Below, one piece after another: positions 36,018 to 55,138 of a stretch of DNA of 64,000 nucleotides. The stretch's first letter is position 1, and each line of letters begins with the position of its first letter. The DNA comes from Lysinibacillus contaminans (lineage in GTDB: Bacteria; Bacillota; Bacilli; Bacillales_A; Planococcaceae), in the NCBI RefSeq assembly GCF_001278945.1, contig NZ_LGRV01000001.1:1-64000 (forward strand), read 5' to 3'. A program made the translations under genes and the position numbers. The notes beneath the pieces were generated by a model. That model made no database searches. It was not told the origin of the DNA and saw only the letters and a program-made list of their open reading frames with translations.

Positions 36018-36199
36018 TGACAAGGTTGGATGCACGATAGAATAAAGGTTTTGCACAATTGCATTACTTTTCATATCGTCGTATGCTACATGTTTCTTTT
36101 GTGTGTGATCTCTAGCCATTTTTGTGAAAATCCAGCCTTGTTCTTTTTTCATCTGCTGTCACATGCTACAATAGAAGAATTGAAATGGAGGATTTACGT

Positions 36200-37564
36200 A
36201 TGTCAGCACCTGTAAAAAAGAATGATCGATTAACAGTTTATATAGAAGATTTAACGCATGACGGCAATGGCGTTGCAAAGATCGATGGCTACCCGTTATT
36301 TATTCAAGGCGCACTTCCTGATGAGACAGCAGAAGTGCATGTTTTAAAAACATTAAAAAACTACGGCTTTGCCAAAATGATAGAAATCATTAAGCCATCA
36401 CCAGACCGTGTAGAGGCACCTTGTGAATATTTTTCTCAATGCGGTGGTTGCCAACTACAACACCTGTCTTACGAAGGACAGCTAAAATGGAAAGAGAACA
36501 TGGTGCGCAACGTTATGCAACGTATCGGCAAAATCGATGCGCCTGTATTACCGGTAAAAGGGATGGAAGAGCCTTGGCAGTACCGAAACAAAGCTCAGAT
36601 TCCATTTTCAACAGATGAAGCAGGACAAGAGATTGCCGGCTTCTACAAAACGAAATCTCATACCATTGTGGATATGGAACGCTGCCTGATTCAAACAGGT
36701 GAAGCAGACGTCATTCTTGCTGAATTGAAAAAAGAATTAGCAACAATCGGCATTAGTCCATACAACGAAGACACACATGAGGGGATGCTACGTCATGTAG
36801 TTGTACGTAAAGCACGTGCAACTGGTGAAGTCATGGTCGTACTCGTAACGAAAAAGAAAAAGTTCCCTAAGGCAGAAGAGGCTGTTGCGACAATTCAAAA
36901 GCTAGTGCCGAATGTTACTTCAATCATGCAAAATATCAATTGCGATAAAACAAACGTCATCTTTGGTGAGGAAACATTGAACCTTTGGGGCAAGGACGTC
37001 ATTATCGACACTATTGGCGATATACGATTTGAAATTTCTGCTCGTTCATTCTACCAAGTGAACCCAATCCAAACAGAAGTACTGTATCAGCAAGCGTTAG
37101 ATTACGCAGATTTACAAGGGGATGAACGCGTCATTGATGCCTATTGTGGTATCGGCACAATTTCATTGTTCTTAGCGCAAAAAGCAAAAGCTGTCATGGG
37201 CGTGGAAATTGTGCCGCAAGCAATTGAAGATGCAAAACGAAACGCCGAGCTAAACGGCTTTACGAATACGTATTTTGAGGCTGGACCAGCAGAAGAAGTC
37301 ATTCCACGTTGGTACAAAGAAGGCAAAGAAGCGGATGTACTTGTAGTCGACCCACCACGAAAAGGTTGTGACGAGGCATTACTGACAACGATATTAGAAC
37401 AACGACCAAAACGCGTTGTTTACGTATCATGTAACCCAGGTACACTTGCCCGAGATCTTCGTATTCTAGAGGATGGCGGCTATAAAACGCAGGAAATTCA
37501 GCCAGTTGATATGTTCCCGCACTCAACACATTGTGAGGCTGTCGCGTGGTTGGAGTTAGTTTGA
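36200..37564 (+). CDS. rlmCD: 23S rRNA (uracil-5-)-methyltransferase RlmCD
   Basis: A 454-residue SAM-dependent enzyme that in Bacillus makes m5U at two 23S sites. An N-terminal TRAM domain precedes the Fe-S cysteines CEYFSQCGGC and the later MERCLIQ. The methyltransferase core has DAYCGIGTISLF, VDPPRKGCDE and the catalytic Cys in YVSCNPGTLARDL. It ends with HSTHCEAVAWLELV. The ATG at 36200 follows TGGAGG by eight bases. The 3' end is repeated in degenerate form four times downstream, marking this gene as the edge of an accessory region. Confidence 0.95.
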   Translation: MSAPVKKNDRLTVYIEDLTHDGNGVAKIDGYPLFIQGALPDETAEVHVLKTLKNYGFAKMIEIIKPSPDRVEAPCEYFSQCGGCQLQHLSYEGQLKWKENMVRNVMQRIGKIDAPVLPVKGMEEPWQYRNKAQIPFSTDEAGQEIAGFYKTKSHTIVDMERCLIQTGEADVILAELKKELATIGISPYNEDTHEGMLRHVVVRKARATGEVMVVLVTKKKKFPKAEEAVATIQKLVPNVTSIMQNINCDKTNVIFGEETLNLWGKDVIIDTIGDIRFEISARSFYQVNPIQTEVLYQQALDYADLQGDERVIDAYCGIGTISLFLAQKAKAVMGVEIVPQAIEDAKRNAELNGFTNTYFEAGPAEEVIPRWYKEGKEADVLVVDPPRKGCDEALLTTILEQRPKRVVYVSCNPGTLARDLRILEDGGYKTQEIQPVDMFPHSTHCEAVAWLELV

Positions 37565-37572
37565 TGTAATGA

Positions 37573-37627
37573 AAAAAAAGCTGTGCCGAAAATCCAGTTT
37601 TCATTGGGAATTTCGGCACAGCTTTTT
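37573..37627 (+). terminator. Terminator after rlmCD
   Basis: A 15-bp perfect stem AAAGCTGTGCCGAAA/TTTCGGCACAGCTTT with flanking A and T runs. Confidence 0.93.
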
Positions 37628-37677: not shown

Positions 37678-37714
37678 AAAAATCGTAAATGCGAATAGTA
37701 CATTTACGATTTTT
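37678..37714 (-). terminator. Terminator of the nhaC-like gene
   Basis: A perfect 13-bp stem AAAATCGTAAATG/CATTTACGATTTT with a 9-nt loop and T/A runs. The gene's TAA stop lies within the stem. Confidence 0.88.
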
Positions 37715-38999
37715 GAATAGGTTTATTTTTAGTTTTCGGATAACCGATGAAGATGGCAATGACTCCGCAGACACCTACTAAAATGGAGTAATACGAATAT
37801 TGCATGATTAAAATAGGGGAAATGCCGGCGATACTGGCAGCTGCTAAAAATTGTGCACCGTACGGAATTATACCCTGAACGACACATGAAAAAATATCGA
37901 TGATGCTTGCTGATTTACGTGGCTCAATATCGTATTGATCGGCAATTTTTTTTGCTATTGGCCCAGCAATCATAATTGCAATCGTATTATTGGCGGTTGA
38001 AAGATCGGTTAAACCAACTAAACCTGCTATTGCAAATTGGGCATCTTTTTGCGACTTAATTTTACGCGTTGCGATATGTACGATAAAATCAATGCCGCCA
38101 TTATGCTTAATGATCTCGACCATACCGGCAATTAACATCGCTAAAAACGCCATTTCAAACATATTGCTCATACCGTCACCAATTGCGCCGATAAATGTCA
38201 TCACCTCATAACTACCATCAATTAAGCCAATAGTTCCAGCGAGGATGATCCCACTTGCTAATACTGTAAAGACATTTACTCCAATCAAAGCAAAAACAAT
38301 GACGAATAAATAAGGAATCAATTTGTACCAATCAAAGCTTGCATGTGTCACTTGAGCTGTGGAATTCAGCGTCAAAAAGGCTAAAATAACACATGTGACA
38401 ATTGCTGCTGGTAACACAATGAAAAAGTTAACTTTAAATTTGTCTTTCATTTCTGCGCCTTGTGAGCGGACCGATGCTATAGTTGTATCCGAAATAAATG
38501 ATAAATTATCTCCAAACATAGCACCACCTATAACAGTTGCCATTAATAGCGGTATTGAAAGTCCTGTTTGCTCCCCAATCGCTAAACCTATTGGAGCGAG
38601 GGCAACAATCGTTCCAACTGAAGTGCCCATTGCTAAAGATATAAAACAGGCAATTATGAATAAGCCAATAACTAATAAGTTTTGTGGCAAAATGGAGAGT
38701 GCAAAGTTTACCGTTGCTTCAATAGCGCCCATTCCTTTTGCGGTTTCCGAAAATGCACCGGCAAGTAAGAAAATGATCACCATTAACATGACGTTCGAAT
38801 TCCCGGCGCCGGTCGTAAAGGTTTCAATCTTTTTTGTGATCGTTTCTTTGCGGTTCATGAAAAGAGCAACAGTGCTTGCAATCGAAATGGCAACCAATAC
38901 AGGAAATGCATAAAAATTATTTAATACAATTCCTGAGCCGATAAACAAAATTAAAAATACAACAATGGGAATTAATGCCCATGGATTTCCTTTTTGCAT
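37704..38999 (-). CDS. NhaC-family Na+/H+ antiporter-like transporter
   Basis: A 431-residue polytopic membrane protein, about eleven to twelve helices, of the NhaC branch of the ion transporter superfamily. The conserved GGAMFGDNLSFISDTTIA (residues 155-172) is the helical-hairpin core of the family. Later GLTDLSTANNTIAIMIAGPIA repeats the pattern. Members exchange Na+ for H+ or move amino acids or malate/lactate, so the substrate is open. AAAGGAGGAAG precedes the ATG. It is convergent with rlmCD and has a long leader with an attenuator-like hairpin. Confidence 0.88.
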   Translation of the reverse strand: MQKGNPWALIPIVVFLILFIGSGIVLNNFYAFPVLVAISIASTVALFMNRKETITKKIETFTTGAGNSNVMLMVIIFLLAGAFSETAKGMGAIEATVNFALSILPQNLLVIGLFIIACFISLAMGTSVGTIVALAPIGLAIGEQTGLSIPLLMATVIGGAMFGDNLSFISDTTIASVRSQGAEMKDKFKVNFFIVLPAAIVTCVILAFLTLNSTAQVTHASFDWYKLIPYLFVIVFALIGVNVFTVLASGIILAGTIGLIDGSYEVMTFIGAIGDGMSNMFEMAFLAMLIAGMVEIIKHNGGIDFIVHIATRKIKSQKDAQFAIAGLVGLTDLSTANNTIAIMIAGPIAKKIADQYDIEPRKSASIIDIFSCVVQGIIPYGAQFLAAASIAGISPILIMQYSYYSILVGVCGVIAIFIGYPKTKNKPIQKS

Positions 39000-39246: not shown

Positions 39247-39611
39247 TTTGTTTGTTATTTCCGAATAATATAAAAACACAGTTCTTTTGGACTAAAATAG
39301 AGTCTGACAATTGTATGAGTTAAATTCACAATTCTAATCCCTTTGGTATCAAGGGCTTTCAAATAATAAAAAAGGGCACCCGATATGGGAGCGGGCATAA
39401 ACACTTCGTTTTAAAAAATGAGAGAATGGAGATTAGAGTACCTCGAGTTATTAAAGAAAACAATGATATAAAGGTTACAATTTCTCAAACATCTCTAGCT
39501 ACCCTCTGAAGAGACTACTTTATAGTTTCTAAAAACCCATGCCATGATAAGCAATGCGAAAGCGCGTGATCTAACTGGAGTCAGATCTGAATAGTAAATC
39601 CAGTAGCACCA
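39247..39611. other. Gene-free accessory DNA upstream of the nhaC-like gene
   Basis: About 365 bp. No supported ORF. On the minus strand, frames ending near 39255 read like a transposase or other gene remnant, but this is weak. A small GC-rich patch GGGCACCCGATATGGGAGCG lies at 39376-39395. Confidence 0.35.
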
Positions 39612-39672
39612 TTGTGTTGCCACATACACTCGACACATTGCGAAGCGGTTGCGTGGTTAGAGTTAGTATAAT
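39612..39672 (+). repeat. rlmCD-tail repeat, copy 1
   Basis: 39627-39671 reads HSTHCEAVAWLELV-stop, identical in protein to the last 14 codons of rlmCD (37520-37564). The six base differences over the first 41 bp are all third-position synonymous changes. Upstream, TTGTGTTGCCACATACAC is shared with copy 4 but not with rlmCD itself. A terminator follows, as it does after the real rlmCD. Confidence 0.9.
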
Positions 39673-39674
39673 GA

Positions 39675-39715
39675 AAAAGAACGAATTTCCGATGGTGGAA
39701 TTCGTTCTTTTTTTT
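39675..39715 (+). terminator. Terminator behind rlmCD-tail copy 1
   Basis: The stem AAGAACGAATTTCC with GGAATTCGTTCTT is followed by more than eight T. Confidence 0.9.
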
Positions 39716-39854: not shown

Positions 39855-40628
39855 ATGGGTTATAAAATTGTTTTTTTTGATGTTGATGGGACTATTACAC
39901 ATCATGAAGATGGCAACATTCCATACAGTACTATTGAAGCTATAAAAAAATTGAAAAGGAAAGGAATTAAGGTAGTAGCAGCAACAGGAAGGCCGTTATC
40001 AATGTGCAAGGAATTACAGGAGTTGGGTATTGAAACATTCATAACAGCGAATGGAGGATACGTGAAACATAACCAAGAAGTTATTCATAAAGTACCAATG
40101 GATAAAAGTATAATTCAAGAAGTTATGGCATTTGCCAAATTACAGAATAACGGATTGTCATTTTATACTGAAGAATTTAGTATGAATGGTGTAATTGAAA
40201 CTGAAATTTTAAAAGCCTTAAAGGAAACATTGTCTCTGAATGATTATCCTGAAATTTATCATTTATTACATAATCAAGAGGTTTTTTTATTGTGTTTGTT
40301 TGCAAATGATGAAACGGTTGACAAGTACATTCATAAATTCCCGCATCTAACATTTAAAAGATGGCATCCTTATGTGTTGAACGTTTTGAAGGAGGATGTA
40401 TCAAAGTCATTAGCCATCCTTAAAACTTTAGAATTTTTTGGGATTGATAAATCGGATGCTATTGCTTTTGGAGATGGAGAAAATGATATTGATATGTTGG
40501 AATTAGTAGGATTCGGTATAGCGATGGGAAATGCAAAAGAAACACTGAAAAATGTTGCTGATTTTGTTACCAAAAAATCCAGTGAAAACGGCATTGAATA
40601 TGCATTGAAAAAGTTTGAGATAATTTAG
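39855..40628 (+). CDS. Cof-type HAD-superfamily phosphatase
   Basis: A 257-residue HAD-IIB hydrolase. Motif I is FFDVDGT with nucleophile Asp9 and Asp11. Motif II is AATGRP near 41-46, and motif IV is FGDGENDIDM near 218-227, binding Mg2+. Between them lies the Cof-type cap. These enzymes dephosphorylate small sugar phosphates, pyridoxal phosphate or flavin precursors; the substrate here cannot be told. TAGGGAG precedes the ATG. It lies between hairpin repeats R1 and R2, in the accessory region. Confidence 0.88.
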   Translation: MGYKIVFFDVDGTITHHEDGNIPYSTIEAIKKLKRKGIKVVAATGRPLSMCKELQELGIETFITANGGYVKHNQEVIHKVPMDKSIIQEVMAFAKLQNNGLSFYTEEFSMNGVIETEILKALKETLSLNDYPEIYHLLHNQEVFLLCLFANDETVDKYIHKFPHLTFKRWHPYVLNVLKEDVSKSLAILKTLEFFGIDKSDAIAFGDGENDIDMLELVGFGIAMGNAKETLKNVADFVTKKSSENGIEYALKKFEII

Positions 40629-40672
40629 ACTGTAATCCTTAGTTTCGAAACCATCTTAAAAATCGCTTTTTC

Positions 40673-40710
40673 CTTATTGAGCTAACGGCGCAGGATAGTT
40701 GAAGAAGATA
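40673..40710 (+). repeat. Inter-gene hairpin repeat R2
   Basis: CTTATTGAGCTAACGGCGCA followed by GGATAGTTGAAGAAGATA, same family as R1, R3, R4 and R5. It begins 44 bp after the HAD gene. Confidence 0.85.
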
Positions 40711-40769
40711 AGTAAAACAATTGCATAAATAATCTTTTTCTAGTATATGATGTTTGGGAGGGAAGAAAA

Positions 40770-41015
40770 TTGAAAACTTTTAGACCTATTATTGTATGTA
40801 CAATGTTACTAAGCGTAGTTACAGCGTGTAATCAACAAAATCCCGAACAAGATAAATTTGTTATATTTGCACACCACGAAAATATGAATGATAAATTGAG
40901 AGAATCTCTGTCCATATGTTTAAATACTGAAGAAATTACGTATCAAGTCGACGATGATAAAAATGTTTTAATAAAGAATAAAGATGTTGACCATGCAGTT
41001 ATGCGTTGTTCATAA
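40770..41015 (+). CDS. Small lipoprotein of unknown function
   Basis: An 81-residue predicted lipoprotein: basic start MKTFRP, hydrophobic IIVCTMLLSVV, lipobox VVTAC with Cys20, then a small charged domain ending AVMRCS. The start is TTG with GGGAGGGAAG upstream. It lies between repeats R2 and R3. I do not recognise a family. The domain pattern (FVIFAHHENMNDKLRESL) could be an immunity or binding protein, but nothing supports a choice. Confidence 0.7.
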   Translation: MKTFRPIIVCTMLLSVVTACNQQNPEQDKFVIFAHHENMNDKLRESLSICLNTEEITYQVDDDKNVLIKNKDVDHAVMRCS

Positions 41016-41034
41016 AAATTGTGTAATGTTTTTC

Positions 41035-41070
41035 GTTACTCAACCAACAGGCGCTTTAGTTGAATAAGCA
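41035..41070 (+). repeat. Inter-gene hairpin repeat R3
   Basis: TTACTCAACCAACAGGCGCT followed by TTAGTTGAATAAGCA. It starts 20 bp after the lipoprotein stop and is followed by a terminator. Confidence 0.8.
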
Positions 41071-41079
41071 CAAAATAAG

Positions 41080-41105
41080 ACCACTCCATGATGGGTGGTT
41101 TTTTA
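41080..41105 (+). terminator. Terminator after R3
   Basis: A 7-bp stem ACCACTC/GGGTGGT (one G-U pair), loop CATGAT, then six T. A near-identical hairpin downstream is split by the IS1182 element. Confidence 0.85.
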
Positions 41106-41192
41106 TGTGTCGAAATTAGTACGTGGTATTATTTAATTTACTAAGGGAACAATTTTGTAACTATTATTTTTAGTATATGGGAAGGTGATGAG

Positions 41193-41372
41193 ATGAGTAA
41201 AAGAGATCAGATACTACTTGGGGTCGTAATCATATTAATGATAATGAGTTTCGTGTTGCATTTAATGTTTGGTTTCGAAGCAATAGGACTTAAACTATTT
41301 GATTTGTTGATTATCGCCATGTGGGGTTTTATTCTCTTTGGAATATATAAGAGGAAGAACGGTGTTTTCTAA
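41193..41372 (+). CDS. Small two-span membrane protein
   Basis: A 59-residue protein with two hydrophobic stretches, ILLGVVIILMIMSFVLHLMF (about 7-26) and LKLFDLLIIAMWGFILFGIY (about 33-52), and a basic end KRKNGVF. GGGAAGGTG precedes the ATG. It lies between the R3 terminator and the hairpin into which the IS1182 element inserted. Family unknown. Confidence 0.65.
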   Translation: MSKRDQILLGVVIILMIMSFVLHLMFGFEAIGLKLFDLLIIAMWGFILFGIYKRKNGVF

Positions 41373-41475
41373 CGATTAAATTCCGACTTTCAAAAAGACT
41401 AGTGTTTCTTACTTTTAGGATACAAAACAAGACTACTCAGTAAGAGGGCACTGAAAAAGTCCAAAATTTAATTTA

Positions 41476-41517
41476 AGCAGTGGAAAGCTCGTTTGCATCG
41501 AACTTTCCACTGCTTTT
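41476..41517 (+). terminator. Terminator inside the left end of the IS1182 element
   Basis: The 12-bp stem AGCAGTGGAAAG/CTTTCCACTGCT is followed by TTTTT. It probably shields the transposase from outside transcription. Confidence 0.8.
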
Positions 41518-41560
41518 TGTTTTATACTAAGGTTATCAATGTATGTAGGTGGTATTTAAA

Positions 41561-43021
41561 ATGATTTCAAACCAAGAAACGCTGAAACTTAGCCCTTTTA
41601 TGGCGATCTATGATATCGTCGTACCCAAAAATAATATGCTTCGCCAAATCAATGAACTTGTCGATTTCTCATTTATTTTAGATGAGTTGAAAACTAAATA
41701 TTGTCTCGATAATGGTCGTAATGCTGTGCCTCCTATTCGTATGTTCAAATATTTATTATTAAAAGCGATTTATGATGTATCCGATGAAGATCTGGTTGAA
41801 CGCTCGAAATACGATATGTCCTTCAAATACTTTTTAGATATGGCGCCTGAAGAAGATGTCATTCATTCAAGTTCATTAACGAAATTTCGCCGACTCCGTC
41901 TTCAAGATGTGGGTTTATTAGATTTGTTGATTGGAAAAACGGTTGAGATTGCGTTAGAGAAAAACATCATTTCGAGTAAAACGATTATTGTTGATGCCAC
42001 ACATACAAAAGCACGTTACAATCAAAAATCACCAAAGGAATTTTTACAGGAGAAATCAAAAAACGTCCGTAAAGCTGTCTATCAATTTGATGAAACAATG
42101 AAAGAAAAATTCCCGCCCAAAACCACTTCTAACGAAGTAAATGATGAACTCGATTATTGCCGTCAAGTCGTAGAAATCGTGGAAGCACAACCAAAAATAG
42201 CGTGTGTCCCTGCTGTCAAAGAAAAATTAAATGTTTTAAAAGAAGTGGTCGAAGATTTTGAAGTACAACTTAGCTATTCCGCAGACCCAGACGCACGTAT
42301 TGGTCATAAATCAATGGACTCTTCTTTCTTTGGATTTAAAACGCATATTGCTATGAGCGATGAACGCATCATTACTGCCGCTGTCGTGACAACGGGTGAG
42401 AAAAGTGATGGGAAATACTTAAAAGAATTAATAGAAAAAAGTAAAACAACAGGCATAGAAATTGACACAGTGATCGGTGATGCAGCTTATTCAGAGAAAG
42501 ACAATCTCCAATTAGCTAAAACAGAGGAATTTCAACTTGTATCAAAACTAAATCCGCAGATTACACAAGGTGGACGTACGAAAGAAGAAGAATTTGAGTT
42601 TAATAAAGATGCTGGTATGTATGTGTGTAAAGCAGGACATATGGCAATTCGCACAGCACGTACGAATAAAAAGAACGTCGGAAAGAACCAACGTCAAACC
42701 TATTATTTTGACATAGAAAAATGTAAAGTATGTCCTTTGCGCGAAGGTTGTTATAAAGAAGGTGCTAAAAATAAGACCTATTCGGTGACCATAAAATCGA
42801 TGGAACACGCAGAACAGGAAGTCTTTCAGAACACAGATGATTTTAAAGAACTGGCGCGTTCACGTTATAAAATTGAAGCCAAAAACAGTGAGTTAAAGAA
42901 CGGACACGGGTATGATGTAGCATCATCTGCGGGTCTATTTGGGATGGAAATGCAAGGAGCCACAACTATATTCGCCGTCAATTTGAAACGGATACTCACG
43001 TTATTGAAAGAAAAAGAGTAA
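41561..43021 (+). CDS. IS1182-family DDE transposase
   Basis: About 486 residues, full length and intact. The N-terminal DUF772-like domain (PPIRMFKYLLLKAIYDVSDEDL) is followed by a DDE core with TIIVDATHTKA near 144-154 and DTVIGDAAYSEK near 300, then a Cys-rich insert (CPLREGC) and RYKIEAKNSELKNGHG with the last acidic residue. ATG at 41561 lies eight bases after GTAGGTGG; an upstream GTG is less likely. It is flanked by inverted repeats and its own terminator. Confidence 0.93.
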   Translation: MISNQETLKLSPFMAIYDIVVPKNNMLRQINELVDFSFILDELKTKYCLDNGRNAVPPIRMFKYLLLKAIYDVSDEDLVERSKYDMSFKYFLDMAPEEDVIHSSSLTKFRRLRLQDVGLLDLLIGKTVEIALEKNIISSKTIIVDATHTKARYNQKSPKEFLQEKSKNVRKAVYQFDETMKEKFPPKTTSNEVNDELDYCRQVVEIVEAQPKIACVPAVKEKLNVLKEVVEDFEVQLSYSADPDARIGHKSMDSSFFGFKTHIAMSDERIITAAVVTTGEKSDGKYLKELIEKSKTTGIEIDTVIGDAAYSEKDNLQLAKTEEFQLVSKLNPQITQGGRTKEEEFEFNKDAGMYVCKAGHMAIRTARTNKKNVGKNQRQTYYFDIEKCKVCPLREGCYKEGAKNKTYSVTIKSMEHAEQEVFQNTDDFKELARSRYKIEAKNSELKNGHGYDVASSAGLFGMEMQGATTIFAVNLKRILTLLKEKE

Positions 43022-43033
43022 AATAACCGAAAG

Positions 43034-43083
43034 AAATAGGCGACTTCCTGTTCCAAGATGAACAAGAAGTCGCCTATTTTTAT
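43034..43083 (+). terminator. Transposase terminator in the IS1182 element
   Basis: The 14-bp stem AAATAGGCGACTTC/GAAGTCGCCTATTT, then T-rich DNA, 13 bp after the transposase stop. Confidence 0.88.
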
Positions 43084-43259
43084 CTTAAATGAACCTACAA
43101 ATTTAAAAACGTAAGTTTTTCAGTGCCCTCCTCAGTAATGGGTGGCTTTTTTAAGTATCGTAATTGTAAATGGTGATAATTATCCAAATGAAATTAATTT
43201 GGGTAGTATTAAACTAACATTACAGCATAGCAAAAGAAGGATATGATAGGGGGATGTAA

Positions 43260-43328
43260 ATTAAGAAACGTTTAATTATGTTGATTTTATTAGCTGTGTG
43301 GTTTTTAACTTCAGCGTCATCAAGTTAG
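43260..43328 (+). pseudogene. Signal-peptide-like gene remnant or tiny ORF with ATT start
   Basis: After GATAGGGGG a frame beginning with ATT reads (I/M)KKRLIMLILLAVWFLTSAS then a stop after 23 codons. It looks like a secretion signal cut short, either a decayed secreted-protein gene or a very short peptide with a rare ATT start. Repeat R4 follows 12 bp later. Confidence 0.4.
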
Positions 43329-43340
43329 AATGTTAACGGA

Positions 43341-43377
43341 TTAGTAAACTAACAGTGCAGTTTACTTGAAGAAGAAT
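43341..43377 (+). repeat. Inter-gene hairpin repeat R4
   Basis: TTAGTAAACTAACAGTGCAG followed by TTTACTTGAAGAAGAAT, same family as R1-R3 and R5. Its arms GTAAACT/AGTTTAC-like pair closely. Confidence 0.8.
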
Positions 43378-43437
43378 ATTGCGGATATTTTCATTATTTG
43401 AAATGATTGAGATTGAATTTAAGAAAGGGGGATTATT

Positions 43438-43992
43438 ATTTTAATTTTATTTGGTTTCTTAATTTCTTTTATTACCATTATATTATTCTTAATTTTATGT
43501 GCTAACATAATAATTTCTTTCATTAAAAAGAATCCTTTTCCTAAAAAAATGCTGATTGCTACGTTATCTGGGGTTGTTTTAGTATCTTCAATCTATATAT
43601 ATGAAATGTACTTTTTTACATTTAGAGAGATTGATAGAGAATTCATCCAAAATGGACCTGGACCTGTAACATCACCTACAGAAAAGTATGTTGCTAATGC
43701 TTATTACGAACCATTTGGTGGTGCAGCAGGAGGTGTTAATGTATGGGTTGAAATCACAAACAATATTGAGAAGAATAAAGTCCAAACTGTTTATTATAGT
43801 GATGCAAAAAGTAATTTTTCTATGGAATGGCTGGATGAGGATGTCCTGTACATTCTAAATGACGAACCTAATTATCCAAATTCAAATAGAAGTATCGAAT
43901 TAGAAATTGGTAAAGAGATTTATCACGAAAATGGTTTGGCTTGTAAAAGTTTGTTAATGAAAGACGACTATGAGACTTGCTATCAATACTAA
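43438..43992 (+). CDS. DUF5412-like membrane protein, probable ATT start
   Basis: The strict ATG frame is 43549-43992 (147 residues), but the frame is open upstream and encodes a further hydrophobic helix (ILFGFLISFITIILFLILCA). AAGAAAGGGGG at 43421-43431 points to translation beginning at one of the ATT codons near 43435-43438. The mature region, with NAYYEPFGGAAGGVNVWVEI and a Cys pair near the end (ACKS, ETCYQ), resembles the DUF5412 family of Bacillus. Two N-terminal helices and an outside domain are predicted. Function unknown. The start is uncertain. Confidence 0.62.
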   Translation: MLILFGFLISFITIILFLILCANIIISFIKKNPFPKKMLIATLSGVVLVSSIYIYEMYFFTFREIDREFIQNGPGPVTSPTEKYVANAYYEPFGGAAGGVNVWVEITNNIEKNKVQTVYYSDAKSNFSMEWLDEDVLYILNDEPNYPNSNRSIELEIGKEIYHENGLACKSLLMKDDYETCYQY

Positions 43993-44046: not shown

Positions 44047-44091
44047 CACTCGACACATTTCGAATCGGTTGCGTGGTTGGAGTTAGTGTAG
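44047..44091 (+). repeat. rlmCD-tail repeat, copy 2
   Basis: The frame reads HSTHFESVAWLELV-stop: two residue changes (Cys to Phe, Ala to Ser) against the end of RlmCD, with the other differences synonymous. A terminator follows, but an IS3 element splits its loop. Confidence 0.88.
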
Positions 44092-44150: not shown

Positions 44151-45011
44151 TTAGGCTGCCGTTACACCATATTTTACGGGTGTTAGGTAGCCTAATTTTT
44201 CTTGGATACGTTCTTCATTATAATAATTTAAATAGGTAATTACCCGCTCAATTACGTCTTGATTACGTAATGAATTAAATTTAACATATTGAAATTCCTC
44301 AGACTTTAAGTTCGAATGAAAAGATTCAATCACCGCATTGTCCCAACAGTTTCCTCTACGTGACATGCTGCTGACAAGGTCGTTTTCCTTAATGTAGGCC
44401 TGATACGCATATGACGTGTAAACACTCCCTTGATCTGAATGCACAATCACACCTTCGGGGTGGTTACGGACAGACAGTGCCTCCTTTAACGTGTCGATTA
44501 CGAGTAGTGTCTGTTGATGATCGTATAATTTATAAGCGACAATTTCATTATTGAATAGATCCATAATGGTCGAAAGATATTTTGTAGTACTGCCATACTG
44601 AATATATGTAATGTCTGTCACCCACTTCTTGTTCGGTTCACTAGCCGTGAAATCTCGTTTAAGAAGATTAGGGGCAATTATGATGCTTTCACCTTGGGAT
44701 TTCCACTTCCGTTTTGGCTTGATACGGCACTGTAAGTTATGCTTTTGCATGAGGTTCTGTACTGTATTGCGATTCAATTTTATATTATGTTCCTGCTTCA
44801 ACATTGCCTTTATTTTTCTATGACCATTCCGATACTTAGTGCTTTTGCACAGTTCTATAATAGATTCCTCTACTACTGAAAGCGACTTATTTATGCCGTG
44901 AAGATACCATCTATAATAGTTCGCCCGTGGTACTCCTAACGCGGATAGGATAGCTGTAATCGTGTACTTCTTTCTAAGTTTCTCTACAATCTGTAGAACT
45001 ATTTCTTTTTT
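44151..45011 (-). CDS. IS3-family transposase OrfB (integrase core)
   Basis: The rve-type integrase core. WVTDITYI carries the first Asp, VIVHSDQGSVYTS the second, and SRRGNCWDNAVIESFHSNLKSE the Glu; the C-terminus is LGYLTPVKYG. The ATG at 44804 would give 217 residues, but the frame is open and protein-like to the slippery run T-AAAAAA-G at 45012-45005 (IVEKLRKKYTITAILSALG). The product is therefore probably an OrfAB fusion made by a -1 shift near the orfA stop. No internal stop was found, so the element may be active. Confidence 0.88.
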   Translation of the reverse strand, partial: KKEIVLQIVEKLRKKYTITAILSALGVPRANYYRWYLHGINKSLSVVEESIIELCKSTKYRNGHRKIKAMLKQEHNIKLNRNTVQNLMQKHNLQCRIKPKRKWKSQGESIIIAPNLLKRDFTASEPNKKWVTDITYIQYGSTTKYLSTIMDLFNNEIVAYKLYDHQQTLLVIDTLKEALSVRNHPEGVIVHSDQGSVYTSYAYQAYIKENDLVSSMSRRGNCWDNAVIESFHSNLKSEEFQYVKFNSLRNQDVIERVITYLNYYNEERIQEKLGYLTPVKYGVTAA

Positions 45012-45316
45012 AACTCCCTTTCGATTTCCATGTACTTTTTTAGAATTTCGTTCTCCATCTTCAAATGTGATAATTGTCGTTCCCGTTTATCGTCTTCACT
45101 GGCTAACTCGGGACCGTGACCGAAAGTGTATTGTTTACCAATCGGCTGATCAAATAGATAAATTTCATTCGCGCGATACCATTTCATCCAAGTTTCGACC
45201 TGTGATTTGTTTTTGATTCCGTGTTTCTCCATAATTTCATTAGTTGTCAATTCACCACTTAGTTTATCTTTAACAACAGCCCATTTAACTTCGCTTGAAT
45301 ATACGTTCTTGCCCAT
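44999..45316 (-). CDS. IS3-family transposase OrfA (helix-turn-helix)
   Basis: A 105-residue DNA-binding part of the IS3 transposase: MGKNVYSSEVKWAVVKDKL with a helix-turn-helix (ELTTNEIMEKHGIKNKSQVETW) and a coiled-coil end MENEILKKYMEIERELKKK. CATCGGAGGTG precedes the ATG at 45316. An upstream open extension is not part of the gene. The A6G slippery heptamer lies eight bases before its TAG. Confidence 0.88.
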   Translation of the reverse strand: MGKNVYSSEVKWAVVKDKLSGELTTNEIMEKHGIKNKSQVETWMKWYRANEIYLFDQPIGKQYTFGHGPELASEDDKRERQLSHLKMENEILKKYMEIERELKKK

Positions 45317-45420
45317 GCAAAAACACCTCCGATGTAAGTACTTTTTACAAGTGTACCACTCCGAAGGTGTTTTATATTGTCTCAATAATTTAGGTTAGTC
45401 CAAATTTCAAATAAAGAGGT

Positions 45421-45434: not shown

Positions 45435-45663
45435 TGAAATTTGTAAAGAATTACAAGGTCGAATTTCATTATTAGGAAAAGTCCACAACAAAAATCTTGT
45501 CTTTATATGTGAATAAATGTGGAGGGAATACTACAAAATCAGTAAAAACTAATTCTGTATTTATAGTTTTTACGTTGAAAGTTTACAACAACTGAGCCGA
45601 TTGCTATATTAAGTGTTAATACCTGAAAATGGTAAATAAAGAATGGGGAAAAGGGGTTTGAAA

Positions 45664-46173
45664 ATGGATGTAAGATTCCCAATTGGAAAATTACAAGTTC
45701 CTGAAAAAGTAACATTTGAAAATGTTCAAGAATGGTTAAAGCAAATTGAAACATACACAATTCGACTAAGAGAAACTGTTGATTTTTTAAGTGATGAGGA
45801 ATTAAACAAAACTTACCGTGAAGGTGCATGGACAGTTCGTCAACTTGTACATCACATTGCAGATTCTCAGTTGAATATGTATCAACGTTTGAAGCTGGCT
45901 TTAACAGATGATAATCCAATAGTTCCAGCTTTTGATGAAGAAAAGTGGGCTGTTCAACCCGATACAGAGCTTCCTGTAGAAAGTTCTATTAAAATGTTAG
46001 AAGGCATAAATGAGCGTATCGTATCTTTAGGACAAAATTTAACTGAAGAGCAATTAGATCGAGCATTTACTCACCAAACAAACGGCAAAATAACAGTTTC
46101 AACAAAAGTTGCAAAATTAGCTTGGCACGAAGAGCATCATTTAGCTCATATAAAATTTGCATTATCAAAATGA
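45664..46173 (+). CDS. DinB-superfamily YfiT-type bacillithiol transferase
   Basis: A 169-residue four-helix-bundle protein of the YfiT/BstA group. Three histidines for a divalent metal are visible: His in VRQLVHHIADS near 47-55, and WHEEHHLAHIKFAL near the C-terminus. Relatives attach bacillithiol to electrophiles or antibiotics, or act as metal hydrolases; which applies here is not known. The ATG at 45664 follows AAAAGGGG. It lies between rlmCD-tail copies 2 and 3, the only gene of that module besides the IS. Confidence 0.85.
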   Translation: MDVRFPIGKLQVPEKVTFENVQEWLKQIETYTIRLRETVDFLSDEELNKTYREGAWTVRQLVHHIADSQLNMYQRLKLALTDDNPIVPAFDEEKWAVQPDTELPVESSIKMLEGINERIVSLGQNLTEEQLDRAFTHQTNGKITVSTKVAKLAWHEEHHLAHIKFALSK

Positions 46174-46241
46174 TTAAACTTTATTATATAAAACTAGCAG
46201 CGATTTATTTTATGTAAGGTGACTCTATTACATCTTTATTT

Positions 46242-46287
46242 CACATACACCACCCTCACCACATTGTGAGGCGGTCGCGTGGTTGGA
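46242..46287 (+). repeat. rlmCD-tail repeat, copy 3
   Basis: CACATACAC as in copies 1 and 4, then a frame reading PHCEAVAWLEFS-stop. HCEAVAWLE is kept and the last residues have changed. It is the copy nearest in bases to the rlmCD end over ACATTGTGAGGC and GTCGCGTGGTTGGAGTT. Confidence 0.85.
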
Positions 46288-46947
46288 GTTTTCATAATTT
46301 ACCTGGTACACACGTAATTGGTAAACGATTCCGAGAATTTAAAAGTTATACTATATAACATAAAAAAGTAGACATTTTTAATCCCGACCCTGATTTTCTT
46401 GCAAATAACCTTTGCGAAATTGGGGTCTTTTTATATGGAATTTAATTGGAAAATATCTCATGTTCAGCATATATGATTAGTACACGGATTAATCCATCTG
46501 TTTCTTTTCTAGGAAAGGAATTGCTTGTATTGATTTTATATCATGAAGCCATCCTATGCTTATCACCGGTAATCAAGTGGTTATTTATATGGGCTTTCCA
46601 GAAGTTTTGCGACTTTTTGGAGGCCTTTATTTCATAGCTATTTCAAGGTTATTTAAAGAATAATTCTTCATTCTACCTCATGATAAAATATGTTGTCAAT
46701 AATAAATTTGTGAATTTATTAAAAAAATGTTACAATAGTCTTACAATTGTTTTTTTGAACTCGTATTTCGAATTCAGCTGTCCTTTTTTGCAGATAGAAT
46801 TTGGATACGTTTTTTTAATATCCTTTTTAAAGCCGAAGAAAAAAATTAAAACAGTTATGTGAGCTTTAAAGGAAGTTAGTTGAATAAAATTATTAATTTA
46901 TTTTCTAATTGTAACCGAGTATTTATTCCATAAGGAGGACTAGAATA
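46288..46947. other. Gene-poor interval with terminator and promoter
   Basis: A hairpin GACCCTGATTT...AAATTGGGGTC (about 46387-46430) with TTTTTAT is a likely terminator. Two ATG- or TTG-led frames (46446-46637, 46680-46862) are hydrophobic but lack ribosome sites and look accidental. TTGTGA (46708) and TACAAT (46731) with 17-bp spacing are a plausible promoter for the next gene. GTTAGTTGAATAAAA near 46876 resembles half of an R repeat. Confidence 0.5.
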
Positions 46948-47802
46948 ATGAATCTAATCAATAAGAAAGTTACACACAAGCGTTTTGGAATGGGTAGTAT
47001 AGTTAAACAAAATGATTCTAGTATAGAAATAAATTTCGCATCGGAAAATAAAATGTTTGTTTTCCCTGATGTATTTGGAAAGCACCTAAAACTACATGAT
47101 AAAAGTGATGCTAGTTCACTTGAAAAAATAATTCAAAAAAAGGAAATGGAACGAAAAGAGGAAGAATCGAAGAAGGAAGAGGAAAAAAAACTACAACGAA
47201 AAAACCTGGAACTTCGCTTAGAACACGAAAAACTTATGAAACATCATAAACTTCATCCAGAATCACAAATGGTTTTTAAGTGTGACGCAGAAGAACAGAG
47301 TAGTTCTTTTTCAGAGTGGAAGGTTTTTTCAGGCGCAATAAAAAGTGGTAATAACAAAGGGAAGCCAAACAAACCAACCCGCTTGCACCAAAATAGCGCT
47401 GTCCTGTTAACAGCAATAGATTCCGGCATGCCTGAAAAAGACAGACGTATCTTAGGTGTCTATATGGTGAATGAAGATTTTATCGGTAAGCTTTGTGAAG
47501 ATGGAAATATTCCTGCTCATTCAAAATACAGACTCCAACTTACAGAACAGGAATCGGAGCAGTTACTTTTGTGGGAATATTATGTAAATGAAAAATCTCC
47601 CGACAAAATGACATGGAATACAGGTAAATACCGTTACTTTGATAATTTATGGATGGCTCAAATTTTACTTGATATAGTTTCGTTGAAAAGTAACCCAGAG
47701 GAACGCGAGCTGGCACAACAATTTTTTAAACATTTTTGTAAAATGAATCAGATAACAGTTCAAGATTTACCAAAGCCTAATGGCGCATTATTGCGTATTT
47801 AG
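46948..47802 (+). CDS. Tudor-like / coiled-coil / PUA-EVE-like protein of unknown function
   Basis: A 284-residue protein in three parts. Residues 1-50 (KKVTHKRFGMGSIVKQ...IEINF) resemble the Tudor-like end of PcrA in this same window ([13 protein letters not shown]). Residues about 58-98 are a charged coiled coil. Residues about 105-275 look like a PUA/EVE-type fold: SEWKVFSGAIKSGNNKGKP, RILGVYMVNEDF and GKYRYFDNLWMAQILLDIV. The Tudor part may bind RNA polymerase or another protein, and EVE-like domains read modified bases. Both are inferences. AAGGAGG precedes the ATG. Confidence 0.65.
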   Translation: MNLINKKVTHKRFGMGSIVKQNDSSIEINFASENKMFVFPDVFGKHLKLHDKSDASSLEKIIQKKEMERKEEESKKEEEKKLQRKNLELRLEHEKLMKHHKLHPESQMVFKCDAEEQSSSFSEWKVFSGAIKSGNNKGKPNKPTRLHQNSAVLLTAIDSGMPEKDRRILGVYMVNEDFIGKLCEDGNIPAHSKYRLQLTEQESEQLLLWEYYVNEKSPDKMTWNTGKYRYFDNLWMAQILLDIVSLKSNPEERELAQQFFKHFCKMNQITVQDLPKPNGALLRI

Positions 47803-48245
47803 ACGTTAGCCCAATGATAATAAGAATGACAGGAGACTGACATATTTTCCTATCTATTACTAATGGCGGACAGTACCTGGCTCTGTCTGCTAATAAACGT
47901 GTGGAATTAATATAATCATTTATCAAGAACGAATTCTTATTAAAAGGATTCGTTCTTTTTGTATTAGGGACTTTCATTTTTCTAACGCCTCCGTGTCCCA
48001 AGTTTCTTGTCCAGGGTAGTTTGTCTTGTTTCGTTATACAGCTTTCGCCCTCTCTTACTGTTGAAATTCTACAAAACTAAAAAATCCATTAAAACGGGTT
48101 GAATAGCGCTTTTATAACATTTTATAAATACTATTTTGTTAAATATGTAAGTAAATCCATAAATTTATATATACTTTTTGAACTTAATGTATACTGTAGA
48201 TATCCTGTTAAACAAGTAGGAAAGTCTTTTTCTAGGAGAGTTACG
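47803..48245. other. Gene-free interval with terminator and promoter
   Basis: A hairpin AAGAACGAAT/ATTCGTTCTT (47925-47957) followed by TTTT ends transcription from the left. TTGAAC (48178-48183) and TATCCT (48201-48206), 17 bp apart, are a candidate promoter for the response-regulator gene. No supported ORF otherwise. Confidence 0.6.
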
Positions 48246-48935
48246 ATGAAATTAGATTGTTTAATTGTTGATGATGAGATTGCTTTAGCTGAAACAACTT
48301 GTGAATATTTTAATATGTTCGAAGTCAAAACAGCATTTGTTACAAGTGCAGAGGAGTGCGAGCTTTTTTTGAAGGAACATGAACCATCATTGATTCTTCT
48401 AGACATCAATCTCGGTAGTGAATCAGGGTTTGATTTATGTAAAAGATTGCGTAAAACTACGCAGATTCCCATTCTATTTATAAGTGCTCGCTCTAGTGAT
48501 GACGACGTTCTAATTGCGCTTAACATCGGTGGAGACGATTACATTCAAAAGCCATATACACTAAGTATTTTACTAGCAAAAGTAAAAGCGGTACTTAAAA
48601 GATATGGCAGTGGTTCTAGCAACCAACAAGAGGTTTTAGAGTTTGGTCAAATCCAAATTGATACACAACTTCATCGTGTTCGAGTTAAGGGTATTGATAT
48701 TCAGCTAAAAACGATGGAATATAAACTTCTCTCGTATTTGGCGAAAAATAAAAATCGTATCATCACAAAAAATGAATTGTTTCAAAATGTATGGGGAGAT
48801 ACCTTTGTAGGGGATGGAACCCTAAATGTACATATTCGCCATTTACGCGAGAAAATTGAAGAGAATCCAAAGGACCCGCAATTTATAAAAACGGTTTGGG
48901 GAACGGGGTATGTGTTAGAGGATACCAAGAAATGA
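48246..48935 (+). CDS. OmpR-family response regulator
   Basis: A 229-residue two-domain regulator. The receiver has the acidic pair in IVDDE, phospho-acceptor Asp53 in LLDINLG, and the Lys of QKPYT. The C-terminal winged-helix DNA-binding domain includes LKTMEYKLLSYLA and TLNVHIRHLREKIE. The ATG at 48246 follows TAGGAGAG; the open frame reaches further upstream without a ribosome site. It overlaps the kinase gene by four bases (ATGA). It probably controls the adjoining ABC transporter. Confidence 0.93.
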   Translation: MKLDCLIVDDEIALAETTCEYFNMFEVKTAFVTSAEECELFLKEHEPSLILLDINLGSESGFDLCKRLRKTTQIPILFISARSSDDDVLIALNIGGDDYIQKPYTLSILLAKVKAVLKRYGSGSSNQQEVLEFGQIQIDTQLHRVRVKGIDIQLKTMEYKLLSYLAKNKNRIITKNELFQNVWGDTFVGDGTLNVHIRHLREKIEENPKDPQFIKTVWGTGYVLEDTKK

Positions 48936-50200
48936 GAATAAAACTGTTAATTATCATCTTTTTGGTTATCTTTACTACAGGAATTACTTTCCCCATAATC
49001 ATGATTAACCATAAAAATATTTCAGAAGTGAATATTGTAGCCATTAATGAAGTAGTTAAAACTGTCGAAAGAAATTGGGGACATATTAATAAAGAAACAC
49101 TTAGCAACAGCGGTTTTAACCCCCCACTTACGATTATAGATAACGTAGAAAACGTAATATATCAATCCCCTGGTATTCAATTTAACAATACATATGATGC
49201 CATCAAAAATAGAGCGTCGATTGTAGATGTGATGCAAAATGATGAAGTTGTAGGGAAGATTATTATCCATAATAACGAACAAGAAATAGTGCGAAAAATG
49301 AAAAAGGAACTGGTTACATCCTTCATTTTAATAGTTGGTTTATTAATGATTGTTAGTAGTATTTATTTTTTCTATATTTATAGAACGTTATTGAAACCTT
49401 TTCAGCAACTTCAACATTTCGCAGCACATGTCGCTAGAGGTAATCTAGATATCCCTTTAAATATGGGTAAGAGCAATTATTTTGGCGCATTCACGGAAAG
49501 TTTTGATTTGTTACGTGAGGAACTCTATGCTGCTCGTGAAAGAGAGTATGAATCCAACCGTAGTAAGAAAGAGCTTGTGGCTACATTAAGTCATGATATT
49601 AAGACGCCTATTGCATCGATAAAAGCTGTAAGTGAGTTAATGCTTATGCAAATAAAAGATGAAAAGATGATTAAACACGTAAATACTATCAATTCGAAAG
49701 CAGAGCAAGTTAACTTACTTGTTACGGATATGTTTCACGCTACTTTAGAAGAACTTCAACAGTTAAAATTAACAGTAACTGAAGAATCGAGTGAAGTACT
49801 TGTTGGAATGATTGAAAATGTAAATTACGATCATCAAATCGTTTATGATTCTATTCCACCTTGTATAATTTTAACCGATCCCGTCCGAATGCAGCAGGTA
49901 ATCGATAATATTATAAGTAATTCATATAAGTATGCAGGAACAAAAATCTCGATTAAACCTCAAATTATTCAGGATTATCTAGAGCTATATATTCAAGATT
50001 TTGGACCGGGAATTAGCGAAGAAGAATTGCCACTACTGTTTAATAAATATTATCGGGGCAAAAATGTCGAAGGCAAGAATGGATCAGGACTAGGTCTCTT
50101 TATATCGAAGTACTTCATGGAAAATATGCAAGGCCAAATTAACTGTTTCAATCGAGATGATGGTTTTACGGTAGTCTTGAAAATAAAACTCGCTTCCTAA
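48932..50200 (+). CDS. Membrane sensor histidine kinase
   Basis: A 422-residue kinase. Helix 1 is at about 3-24, followed by an outside sensor of about 100 residues, helix 2 at about 128-150, a HAMP-like linker, then the dimerisation domain with phospho-acceptor His221 in ATLSHDIKTPIASI. The catalytic domain carries the N box (DNIISNSYKYAG) and G boxes (DFGPGI, GSGLGLF). The sensor is larger than in BceS-type kinases, so it may sense a ligand itself. The start is the ATG overlapping the regulator stop. Confidence 0.93.
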   Translation: MRIKLLIIIFLVIFTTGITFPIIMINHKNISEVNIVAINEVVKTVERNWGHINKETLSNSGFNPPLTIIDNVENVIYQSPGIQFNNTYDAIKNRASIVDVMQNDEVVGKIIIHNNEQEIVRKMKKELVTSFILIVGLLMIVSSIYFFYIYRTLLKPFQQLQHFAAHVARGNLDIPLNMGKSNYFGAFTESFDLLREELYAAREREYESNRSKKELVATLSHDIKTPIASIKAVSELMLMQIKDEKMIKHVNTINSKAEQVNLLVTDMFHATLEELQQLKLTVTEESSEVLVGMIENVNYDHQIVYDSIPPCIILTDPVRMQQVIDNIISNSYKYAGTKISIKPQIIQDYLELYIQDFGPGISEEELPLLFNKYYRGKNVEGKNGSGLGLFISKYFMENMQGQINCFNRDDGFTVVLKIKLAS

Positions 50201-50286
50201 TTAAGGAATAATTAAGAATTACACAAAGACTTAATAAGAATTCATTTTGTATGCTAAGACTGTAATCATCATTACGGTCTTTTTTC
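50193..50286 (+). promoter_or_regulatory. Terminator and candidate regulator-binding repeats before the ABC genes
   Basis: AAGACTGTAAT/ATTACGGTCTT (50256-50281) plus a T run is a terminator for the two-component genes. Just upstream are direct repeats ATTAAGGAATA and ATTAAGAATTA with an 11-bp period, and then CTTAATAAG. Such spacing is common for OmpR-family operators. TATGCT at 50250 could be a -10 element. The operator call is an inference. Confidence 0.5.
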
Positions 50287-50327
50287 TTTGAGTTGAAAAT
50301 CAATTAGGGGAGAGTGCAAATTAAATT

Positions 50328-51089
50328 ATGACAAAGATCATTATTAAAACGGAGAAGTTGTGTAAAACTTTTTCGAGCGGTGGAATTCAACAGCATGTTT
50401 TAAAAAATTTAGATATCAGTTTATTCGAAGGCGATTTTACTATCATAATGGGTAGTTCAGGATCCGGGAAATCCACTTTACTTTACGCAATGAGTGGGAT
50501 GGATAAACCAACATTAGGTGAAATCGATTTTGCTGGAAAAAGTTTATCTCAATTAAACAACGATCAACTTGCGGTATTTAGAAGAAACAACTGTGGTTTT
50601 GTATTTCAACAAATATATTTACTAGACAATATGAGCGTACTTGATAATGTACTGGCAAGTGGTCTTTTAGTAAATAAGAAAAAGAGTGAACTCGTACAAA
50701 AAGCGAAAGAATTATTAATGCAAGTAGGAATCAATGATAACGCATGGTCTAAATTTCCGACACAACTTTCGGGTGGTGAGGCGCAACGAGTTGGGATTGT
50801 TCGTGCATTGATTAACAATCCGAGAATAGTTTTTGCAGATGAACCAACCGGTGCATTAAACTCTGCATCTAGTGAGAGTGTATTAGATGTTTTAACAAAT
50901 GTAAATCAAAACGGACAAAGTCTTGTCATGGTCACGCATGATATGAAAACCGCATTACGTGGGAATCGAATTTTATATTTACGAGATGGTGTCATTTGTG
51001 GTGATTTGCAGTTAGGTGGATACAGTGAACAAAACAATCTCGAACGGCACGAGAAACTCCAACATTTCCTAGCTGAAATGGGGTGGTAG
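50328..51089 (+). CDS. ABC transporter ATP-binding protein (MacB/BceA type)
   Basis: A 253-residue ATPase of the LolD/MacB/BceA group. Walker A is GSSGSGKST near 42-50, the Q-loop is in FVFQQIYLLD, the signature is LSGGEAQRVGIVRAL and Walker B is IVFADEPTGAL. The ribosome site AGGGGAG is rather far (about 14 bases) from the ATG, but no other start fits. The stop is one base before the permease start. Together with the kinase pair this looks like a peptide or antibiotic sensing and detoxification module. Confidence 0.92.
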   Translation: MTKIIIKTEKLCKTFSSGGIQQHVLKNLDISLFEGDFTIIMGSSGSGKSTLLYAMSGMDKPTLGEIDFAGKSLSQLNNDQLAVFRRNNCGFVFQQIYLLDNMSVLDNVLASGLLVNKKKSELVQKAKELLMQVGINDNAWSKFPTQLSGGEAQRVGIVRALINNPRIVFADEPTGALNSASSESVLDVLTNVNQNGQSLVMVTHDMKTALRGNRILYLRDGVICGDLQLGGYSEQNNLERHEKLQHFLAEMGW

Positions 51090-51090
51090 G

Positions 51091-53442: not shown

Positions 53443-53546
53443 TGAGAATCAGAAAATCACGCATAGTTTTAGTATTAAAAATAGGATATTTTCTGTCTAA
53501 CAAAGAATGAATCTATTCTAATTTCCTATAAAACCACCAACAACTC

Positions 53547-53606
53547 TTGTGTTGCCACATACACACCATACATTGTGAAGCGGTGCATGGTTGGAGTTAG
53601 TATAAT
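53547..53606 (+). repeat. rlmCD-tail repeat, copy 4
   Basis: TTGTGTTGCCACATACAC identical to copy 1, then ACATTGTGAAGCGG and TGGTTGGAGTTAGTATAAT. One base is missing after GCGGT, breaking the reading frame, so this copy is decayed. A terminator follows 15 bp on. Confidence 0.9.
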
Positions 53607-53621
53607 TAAACAGTTAAATGA

Positions 53622-55038: not shown

Positions 55039-55138
55039 TGCTGGATGATAGAGTGAAATAACTGCAATAAGTATCTTTAGTTTTATGAGCAATTGAATAG
55101 TAACTCTGCTACATCAAATAAAGTTGTGCATACCATGT

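Follow-up and report, generated by a model that had tools for sequence, protein, structure and literature searches.

Small elements stacked at the 3′ end of rlmCD in Lysinibacillus contaminans and their probable link to large serine recombinases

The closest described counterparts of the locus analyzed here are the rumA ICEs and IMEs of streptococci. According to published accounts (PMC4701971, PMC5704250, PMC5357655), these carry a single large serine integrase, of family Ser_4 in the IMEs, and their att site lies in the 3′ part of the integrase gene. They resemble the elements of our window (the whole stretch of 64,000 nucleotides analyzed, positions 1 to 64,000 of L. contaminans contig NZ_LGRV01000001.1) in the family of the target gene; as described, both gene ends are exchanged reciprocally. 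The exchange is reported to alter the C-terminus of the rumA product, whereas in the window the incoming end restores HCEAVAWLELV together with a hairpin. The window elements also differ in that no integrase was found, no transfer gene was recognized among the 13 of their ORFs scanned and several of them are stacked. The location of att inside the integrase gene, as given for the rumA elements (PMC4701971), is the architecture that we read for the large serine recombinases (LSRs) at rlmCD, where it was observed in relatives only (the overlap in L110 and the remnants that run into the RE-A sequence in L168-L170, see below).

SCC elements offer a second comparison. Their Ccr enzymes are LSRs, their att site is at the 3′ end of the rRNA methyltransferase gene rlmH, and the cassettes described include one that has several att variants but no known ccr (PMC8407400). 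They differ from the present elements in target, rlmH versus rlmCD, and in core. CIMEs are portrayed as products of ICE/IME decay which have lost the recombination genes, have kept both att sites and undergo tandem accretion (PMC5704250). The same combination is seen in the window, where the edges (att halves) are present and no recombinase was found; the size of ~2-7 kb and the number of elements per site are, however, more like those of a cassette array. In Listeria, prophages of a broad-host phage genus are located between rlmCD and fosX (PMC8386393). These are whole prophages, whereas no phage genes were recognized among the window element ORFs scanned. IME8 of Lysinibacillus, in the description available, has tyrosine recombinases and uses another site. 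No Phage_integrase was present near the array of the host genome (G000) among the matches listed, and none among the window ORFs scanned. The portions of the literature searched contained no description of such rlmCD-end arrays in Bacillales.

Organization of the rlmCD-dus interval

In six genus-mates (L056, L044, L050, L059, L045, L046) dus starts 108-189 bp past rlmCD. In the window the distance is ~16.5 kb, and four blocks of ordinary genes are found between the two genes (Table 1). As in the rumA systems, the insertion is in the 3′ part of the gene, and the repeats start within its last codons. Four extra copies of the rlmCD 3′ end are present, starting at 39627, 44047, 46253 and 53562/53571. 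A degenerate pattern of the peptide end, allowing up to 3 mismatches, matched the window 4 times, whereas 0.02 matches would be expected by the shuffling of sequences. The repeat is most likely a spare rlmCD end, carried in by one of several small elements piled at the gene end.

Table 1. Position of rlmCD, its end copies, half-sites and cargo genes in the window
Feature	Position	Strand	Evidence or remark
rlmCD, 23S rRNA uracil-5-methyltransferase, target gene	36185..37564	+	NCBIfam TIGR00479 (rumA) 1.3e-170, above cut-off; Pfam
Present rlmCD end, CAT to stop, with inverted repeat 37575-37627; putative left edge (P′) of element 1	37529..37627	+	
Element 1 cargo: Na+/H+ antiporter (NhaC-like)	37704..38999	-	Pfam PF03553 1.4e-22; TIGR00931 below cut-off
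RE-A half-site, right edge of element 1	39593..39631	-	Pattern match 39616-39643
Copy 1, HSTHCEAVAWLELV-stop; from CAT (39636) putative left edge (P′) of element 2	39627..39671	+	
Hairpin-like stretch after copy 1	39672..39714	+	Alignment to working rlmCD ends of other genomes runs through it
Element 2 cargo, whole	39855..43992	+	Pfam
Element 2: HAD hydrolase	39855-40628	+	Pfam
Element 2: small ORF	40770-41015	+	
Element 2: DUF772/DDE transposase	41549-43021	+	Pfam
Element 2: DUF5412 protein	43549-43992	+	Pfam
Copy 2, HSTHFESVAWLELV-stop	44047..44091	+	Type matches working ends L047, L069 over 45-55 nt
IS transposase ORFs (rve integrase core, helix-turn-helix) in left edge of element 3	44151..45385	-	Pfam
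Element 3 cargo: YfiT-family bacillithiol transferase (DinB_2)	45643..46173	+	NCBIfam NF009807 2.4e-66, above cut-off
RE-B type half-site, right edge of element 3	46202..46261	+	By eye; 88-89% homologous to RE-B junctions of L069, L047
Copy 3, PSPHCEAVAWLEFS-stop; putative left edge of element 4	46253..46297	+	Working ends of its type: L052, L068, L060
Element 4 cargo, whole	46948..53442	+	
Element 4: 284-aa protein	46948-47802	+	
Element 4: response regulator	48099-48935	+	
Element 4: histidine kinase	48896-50200	+	
Element 4: ABC ATPase	50328-51089	+	
Element 4: FtsX-type permease	51091-53442	+	
RE-A half-site, right edge of last element	53529..53566	-	One mismatch to pattern
Copy 4, probably the displaced older rlmCD end	53562..53610	+	Frame broken by 1-base deletion
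Fossil of an LSR gene 3′ end, VKAKADYLEVHYRTSKPSAF	53583..53699	-	Overlaps hairpin behind copy 4
dus, tRNA-dihydrouridine synthase, old right neighbour	54058..55038	+	Pfam PF01207

The initial annotation had pointed out that copy 1 differs from the rlmCD end at six positions in 41 bp, all of them third codon positions, with the peptide unchanged, and had considered such a pattern unexpected for a non-coding duplicate. Re-alignment confirmed the six differences. The two sequences align without gaps from 37520-37564 (gene end) to 39627-39671 (copy 1), and over these 15 codons (45 nt, to the stop) there are 8 differences, all synonymous: seven in third positions plus TGA/TAA. Both sequences encode HSTHCEAVAWLELV-stop. 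When substitutions were simulated at random, half of them transitions, the peptide remained unchanged in a fraction of 1e-5 for 8 of 45 nt and of 6.5e-5 for 6 of 41 nt. The pattern is therefore not due to chance, for which the simulated probability is ~1e-5. The three codons of copy 1 ahead of CAT (CAC TCG ACA) come at least partly from the right half-site of the preceding element, GTTGCCACATACACTC at 39616-39631, so that they are not drifted rlmCD sequence and the rlmCD-type end starts at CAT. For the 36 nt from CAT on, with 7 differences, the simulation kept the peptide in 2.3e-5.

The other copies vary in their state. Copy 1 is intact and copy 3 has no clear decay; copy 2 has two unseen residues, F and S, in place of the C and A to which these positions are confined in the 34 working ends scored, and the core of copy 4 (53571-53610) has lost its frame by the 1-base deletion. 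A gradient of decay with distance from rlmCD was considered and is unsupported, as the numbers of intact copies by rank are 13/21, 4/11, 2/2 and 0/2.

Some of the cargo is found at rlmCD in other strains as well. The stretch with the YfiT and 284-aa genes recurs immediately after rlmCD in L047 and L069, with 93% identity, and ~0.4 kb after rlmCD in L039, with 91% identity. Since in L047 and L069 RE-A comes after the 284-aa gene, the last block, element 4, may represent two elements with a lost boundary. The 284-aa protein has no Pfam or NCBIfam match; cassettes with its gene recur at rlmCD in several genera. The YfiT cassette of L047/L069 aligns only from window position 45403, past the IS transposase ORFs. 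The HAD hydrolase gene of element 2 has ~81% DNA identity to a Cytobacillus firmus plasmid gene beside IS110 transposases, and the gene is present on Cytobacillus and Priestia plasmids; the two HAD-bearing plasmid stretches read contained no rlmCD-type core and only loose RE-A lookalikes. No conjugation or mobilization module was recognized among the 13 larger window element ORFs, to which the scan applied.

Half-sites and large serine recombinases at rlmCD ends

Two conserved sequences precede many of the copies that are not part of the gene: RE-A, ...ACCCACCAGCACCnATGTGTTGCCACATACACTC, and RE-B, ...CTACTACATC...CAGCACTCACCA. In the window, copies 1 and 4 are preceded by RE-A, copy 3 by an RE-B-like sequence and copy 2 by neither. 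The RE-B-like half-site of element 3 was located by eye and was not flagged by the strict RE-B pattern (up to 3 mismatches). A search of GTDB genomes with the pattern RE-A + CAYTGYGA found 18 stretches, from Lysinibacillus, Solibacillus, Psychrobacillus, Ureibacillus, Paenisporosarcina, Neobacillus, Mesobacillus, Bacillus and a Bacillales MAG. All 18 continue as an rlmCD-type end, e.g. HCEAVAKIVLE, the first core codons being preset by the CAYTGYGA of the pattern. Further RE-A copies in the fetched stretches adjoin HVECVAQLVL or HVECVAKIELV. With a looser RE-A pattern (up to 1 mismatch) there were 79 places in 41 of 261 genomes, a set drawn for the order and listed as one family, and none with the reversed pattern; some of the 79 places are without a clear rlmCD-type end after them. 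The core pattern was present in 33 of 61 relatives.

RE-A had no match in viral contigs, plasmids or phages. The coding form GARTGYATGTGGCARCAY was found in 7 stretches of viral contigs, in frames unlike those of LSRs, and these were dropped as chance matches. On the minus strand, the RE-A half-site at 39593..39631 (CVECMWQHNGATGF...) resembles the last part of an LSR gene. Stops or indels disrupt the RE-A frame in some of the 46 distinct instances, so the conservation of RE-A may reflect binding of a recombinase rather than coding.

Copies of these sequences were also observed in other settings. Solitary copies with a shortened RE-A variant are located in L054 and L057 (two genomes), downstream of a gene that we take to be glmS-like. 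RE-A-like copies come after dus at L069:8037, L047:12000 and L071:5654, and that of L069 adjoins, as judged by eye, a second kind of methyltransferase-like end, HVECVAKLSLKG. Two solitary rlmCD-end copies are found elsewhere in the host genome, L037 (G000:C1:829337) and L038 (G000:C1:1744302), which have two nearby genes in common, a small lipoprotein-like one and that of a presumably IS110-like transposase.

An intact recombinase gene was found in Psychrobacillus vulpis (L110). It encodes a 573-aa LSR (Resolvase, Recombinase and Zn-ribbon), here called P0001, and lies antisense directly behind rlmCD, its last residues being encoded by the rlmCD antisense strand. Homologues of P0001 at E ≤1e-40 were detected in 16 of 250 family members, with identities of no more than 26-33% for some of them; at the stricter value of 1e-80 there were 10 of 261. 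Ten LSR regions were fetched, and in eight of these the recombinase match overlaps the end of an rlmCD-family gene or is at most 83 bp from it. For two of the eight, G189 and G090, that gene is only 35-36% identical to rlmCD and must be counted among other members of the family. The best NCBIfam match of P0001 was XisF, followed by CcrB, CcrC and CcrA, all below their cut-offs (for CcrB 1.5e-35 and 122.9 bits versus an equivalog cut-off of 900 bits). As P0001 falls below the curated cut-offs for ccrA, ccrB and ccrC, it may work like a Ccr enzyme, yet is not classed as one.

In G086 rlmCD is followed by an LSR gene, split between frames, and at 11.9 kb by an RE-B junction with an rlmCD-type end, which bounds the LSR region. 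The core common to both edges is CATTGTGAA; dus is another 18.8 kb on. LSR remnants in L168, L169 and L170, three loci which may be closely related to one another, extend across the core and into RE-A while staying in frame (L168: ...SNTQHSTCA/ECMWQHKGAGGF). Each of them has a stop ~12 residues ahead of the core, and L169 has another near the core. L173 carries an LSR remnant at the rlmCD end and RE-A 3.9 kb further. On account of the remnants in L168-L170 and L173 we interpret RE-A as the final part of a recombinase gene that was left at the far edge. In the stretches fetched around LSRs, from ten genomes plus L110 and up to 59 kb long when joined, there was no RE-A with up to 3 mismatches and a single one with 4, in G080, so that RE-A is tied to LSRs only via these remnants. 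Assignment of half-site to LSR type is not one-to-one: in L108 a left edge of G086 type is combined with RE-A as the right edge. Excised circles were not seen. The 20 kb that precede dus in G175, G080 and G114 contained no rlmCD-type end. One stretch of G189 has rlmCD itself 1.6 kb ahead of dus; in its other stretch, and likewise in G008, the ends come after a different gene. Ends like HVECVVLMSRVEK with a common upstream sequence were seen in G080 (12846), G114 (6415), L066 and L188, and we assume them to be the end of an ICE gene targeted by other serine integrases.

In the window itself no encoded LSR was detected, either by domain scan of the 13 element ORFs or by LSR tblastn; PF00239 had no match in the window's part of its contig, and no P0001-like LSR at 1e-40 was present in the host assembly (G000, 4.1 Mb, 86% complete). 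What was found is a fragment. The sequence VKAKADYLEVHYRTSKPSAF behind copy 4 matches the C-terminal regions of LSRs (G175, E 8e-7; G086, E 2e-6) in a search with five short window stretches. As DNA (53621-53680) it gave E 1.5e-10 against the whole window, the best value with the reversed window being 4e-5. When the edges of 81 loci were compared, antisense LSR matches were obtained at 12 (one being the intact L110) versus 3 in the same-strand control; the window fossil does not pass in this comparison at that database size. The fossil DNA is also the hairpin after the rlmCD end of copy 4, and one sequence may thus double as recombinase code and as a putative rlmCD terminator. A resolvase-domain recombinase directly beside copies was looked for by eye in 12 genomes, with no instance.

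We consider it likely that LSR elements are stacked at the end of rlmCD and that copy 1 is an RE-A/P′ junction. According to this model, attB would be the last ~12 codons of rlmCD, used by an LSR family that is known from the streptococcal rumA elements and present in Bacillales, whose gene would lie antisense to rlmCD and overlap its end, and in the free circle attP would be inside the 3′ end of the LSR gene. Recombination would join the left half (P′) of the element to rlmCD, one strand of P′ re-encoding HCEAVAWLELV-stop plus the hairpin and the other strand being the 3′ end of the LSR gene. The last codons of that gene (RE-A: ECMWQHxGAGGF; RE-B: a short tail) would stay at the far edge, by the displaced rlmCD end, and repeated insertions would stack the elements. 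Copy 1 would then be RE-A of the outermost (antiporter) element joined to P′ of the next, and would have ended rlmCD until element 1 inserted. The differences would be synonymous only because each P′ was kept as a functional rlmCD end in its own lineage. The left edge moreover appears to be doubly constrained, by the rlmCD C-terminus and hairpin and by the recombinase C-terminus on the other strand, and this would produce a synonymous-only pattern. The model presumes that the LSRs are active at rlmCD and that RE-A belongs to an LSR of the rlmCD kind; elements without an LSR would once have had one, or would have moved in trans. The stack in the window was probably built by enzymes of a known DNA-inserting class, of which only a fragment was found here.

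Direct repeats with synonymous differences would also result from Campbell-type homologous integration of circles with an rlmCD end, or from capture by flanking homology after transformation, neither of which calls for a site-specific recombinase, and none was found in the window. This explanation is nevertheless improbable, given that one half-site adjoins different rlmCD ends in many genera and that LSR genes and remnants are present at the edges of the copies. Restoration of the gene end by the element is typical of tyrosine integrases, and a tyrosine integrase with an identity segment at the gene 3′ end, as in the classical genomic islands at tRNA genes, could be invoked. A 118-aa Phage_integrase fragment is indeed located 1.5 kb from a copy in G036; inspection by eye of the matches listed for 12 genomes gave no other near the copies, however, and serine recombinases sit exactly at the edge, which makes a tyrosine enzyme very unlikely.

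Origin of the present rlmCD end and order of arrival

Each copy, together with its downstream flank, was compared with the fetched loci (E up to 1e-4, best 14 matches). Each of the four copies with some flank matches a working rlmCD end elsewhere. Among the matches listed, copy 1 with its hairpin is of the type that forms the working end in L109, L168, L169 and L174 (80.6-82.7% over 81-93 nt), and copy 4 is of the type found in L172, where dus starts 313 bp past rlmCD. Window segments 53561-53746 and 53829-53994 align to L172 at 82-87%. The present gene end with its long flank occurs otherwise, among the matches listed, at junctions only (L048, L111/L089, L037, L167); in L073, L063 and L172 the working ends are similar to it no further than ~15-18 nt beyond the stop.

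This comparison of flanks assigns copy 4 to the displaced end, copy 1 to element 2 and the present end to element 1. Copy 4 is most likely the older end displaced by the array, because its flank aligns with a working rlmCD in L172 and bears the LSR fossil. The present rlmCD end probably arrived with element 1, in agreement with the proposal of the initial annotation that it may be the newcomer. The same annotation regarded copy 1 as the end of a formerly working rlmCD allele, either the displaced native end or one brought from another strain. It does have the form of a working end, as in the four loci above, and is probably not native: it is preceded by RE-A, and the end nearest dus is that at 53,562-53,610. 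Copy 1 is probably the left edge of element 2 joined to the right half-site of element 1.

A comparison with relatives free of the island had been suggested as a check, and over the 30-bp core its outcome was divided. Among six relatives with rlmCD beside dus, four are nearer copy 1, one is nearer the gene and one is a tie; for the 20 working ends scored the numbers are 7/7/6 (copy 1/gene/tie), with no exact match to either sequence. Although copy 1 is an intact rlmCD-type end and those four of six relatives are nearer to it, the simple version in which it is the displaced native end has very little probability, as the segment ahead of dus has its own rlmCD end, aligned with the working rlmCD of L172 and its flank, and RE-A rather than rlmCD precedes copy 1.

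For the stacked LSR elements preferred here, the order of insertion would follow from their position. In L073 (G036) a sequence similar to window 55096-55206 is directly behind rlmCD (82% over 112 nt), so that dus itself seems to be an earlier arrival, and the dus unit is possibly an older insertion.

Movement of cassettes between strains

The 284-aa protein is 83-93% identical in genus-mates, whose rlmCD, where contained in the stretch, is 90-92% identical. In L174 it is 88% identical (rlmCD 76%) and in L102 81% (rlmCD 60%). Furthermore, the 284-aa and YfiT cassettes of L174 are in reverse order relative to the window. The identities and the reversed order fit horizontal exchange at the rlmCD site, and the cassettes would have moved in trans, without a resident recombinase.

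A broader reading, which we put forward tentatively as possible rather than probable, is that the end of rlmCD serves Bacillales as a site of gene capture in general, integron-like but with no integrase residing there. Cassettes of 2-7 kb that lack an LSR, each with a replacement end plus hairpin (P′) and an LSR-gene tail (P), would be mobilized in trans by LSR elements passing through, would be exchanged among families and would be reshuffled, rlmCD remaining functional as its 3′ ends are swapped. The stacking of LSR elements at rlmCD would explain why a core gene of rRNA modification differs in its 3′ end among related strains. It also yields, for tests of trans-mobilization, att half-sites that match and an LSR that is intact, and RE-A provides a DNA signature for decayed elements without a recombinase gene.
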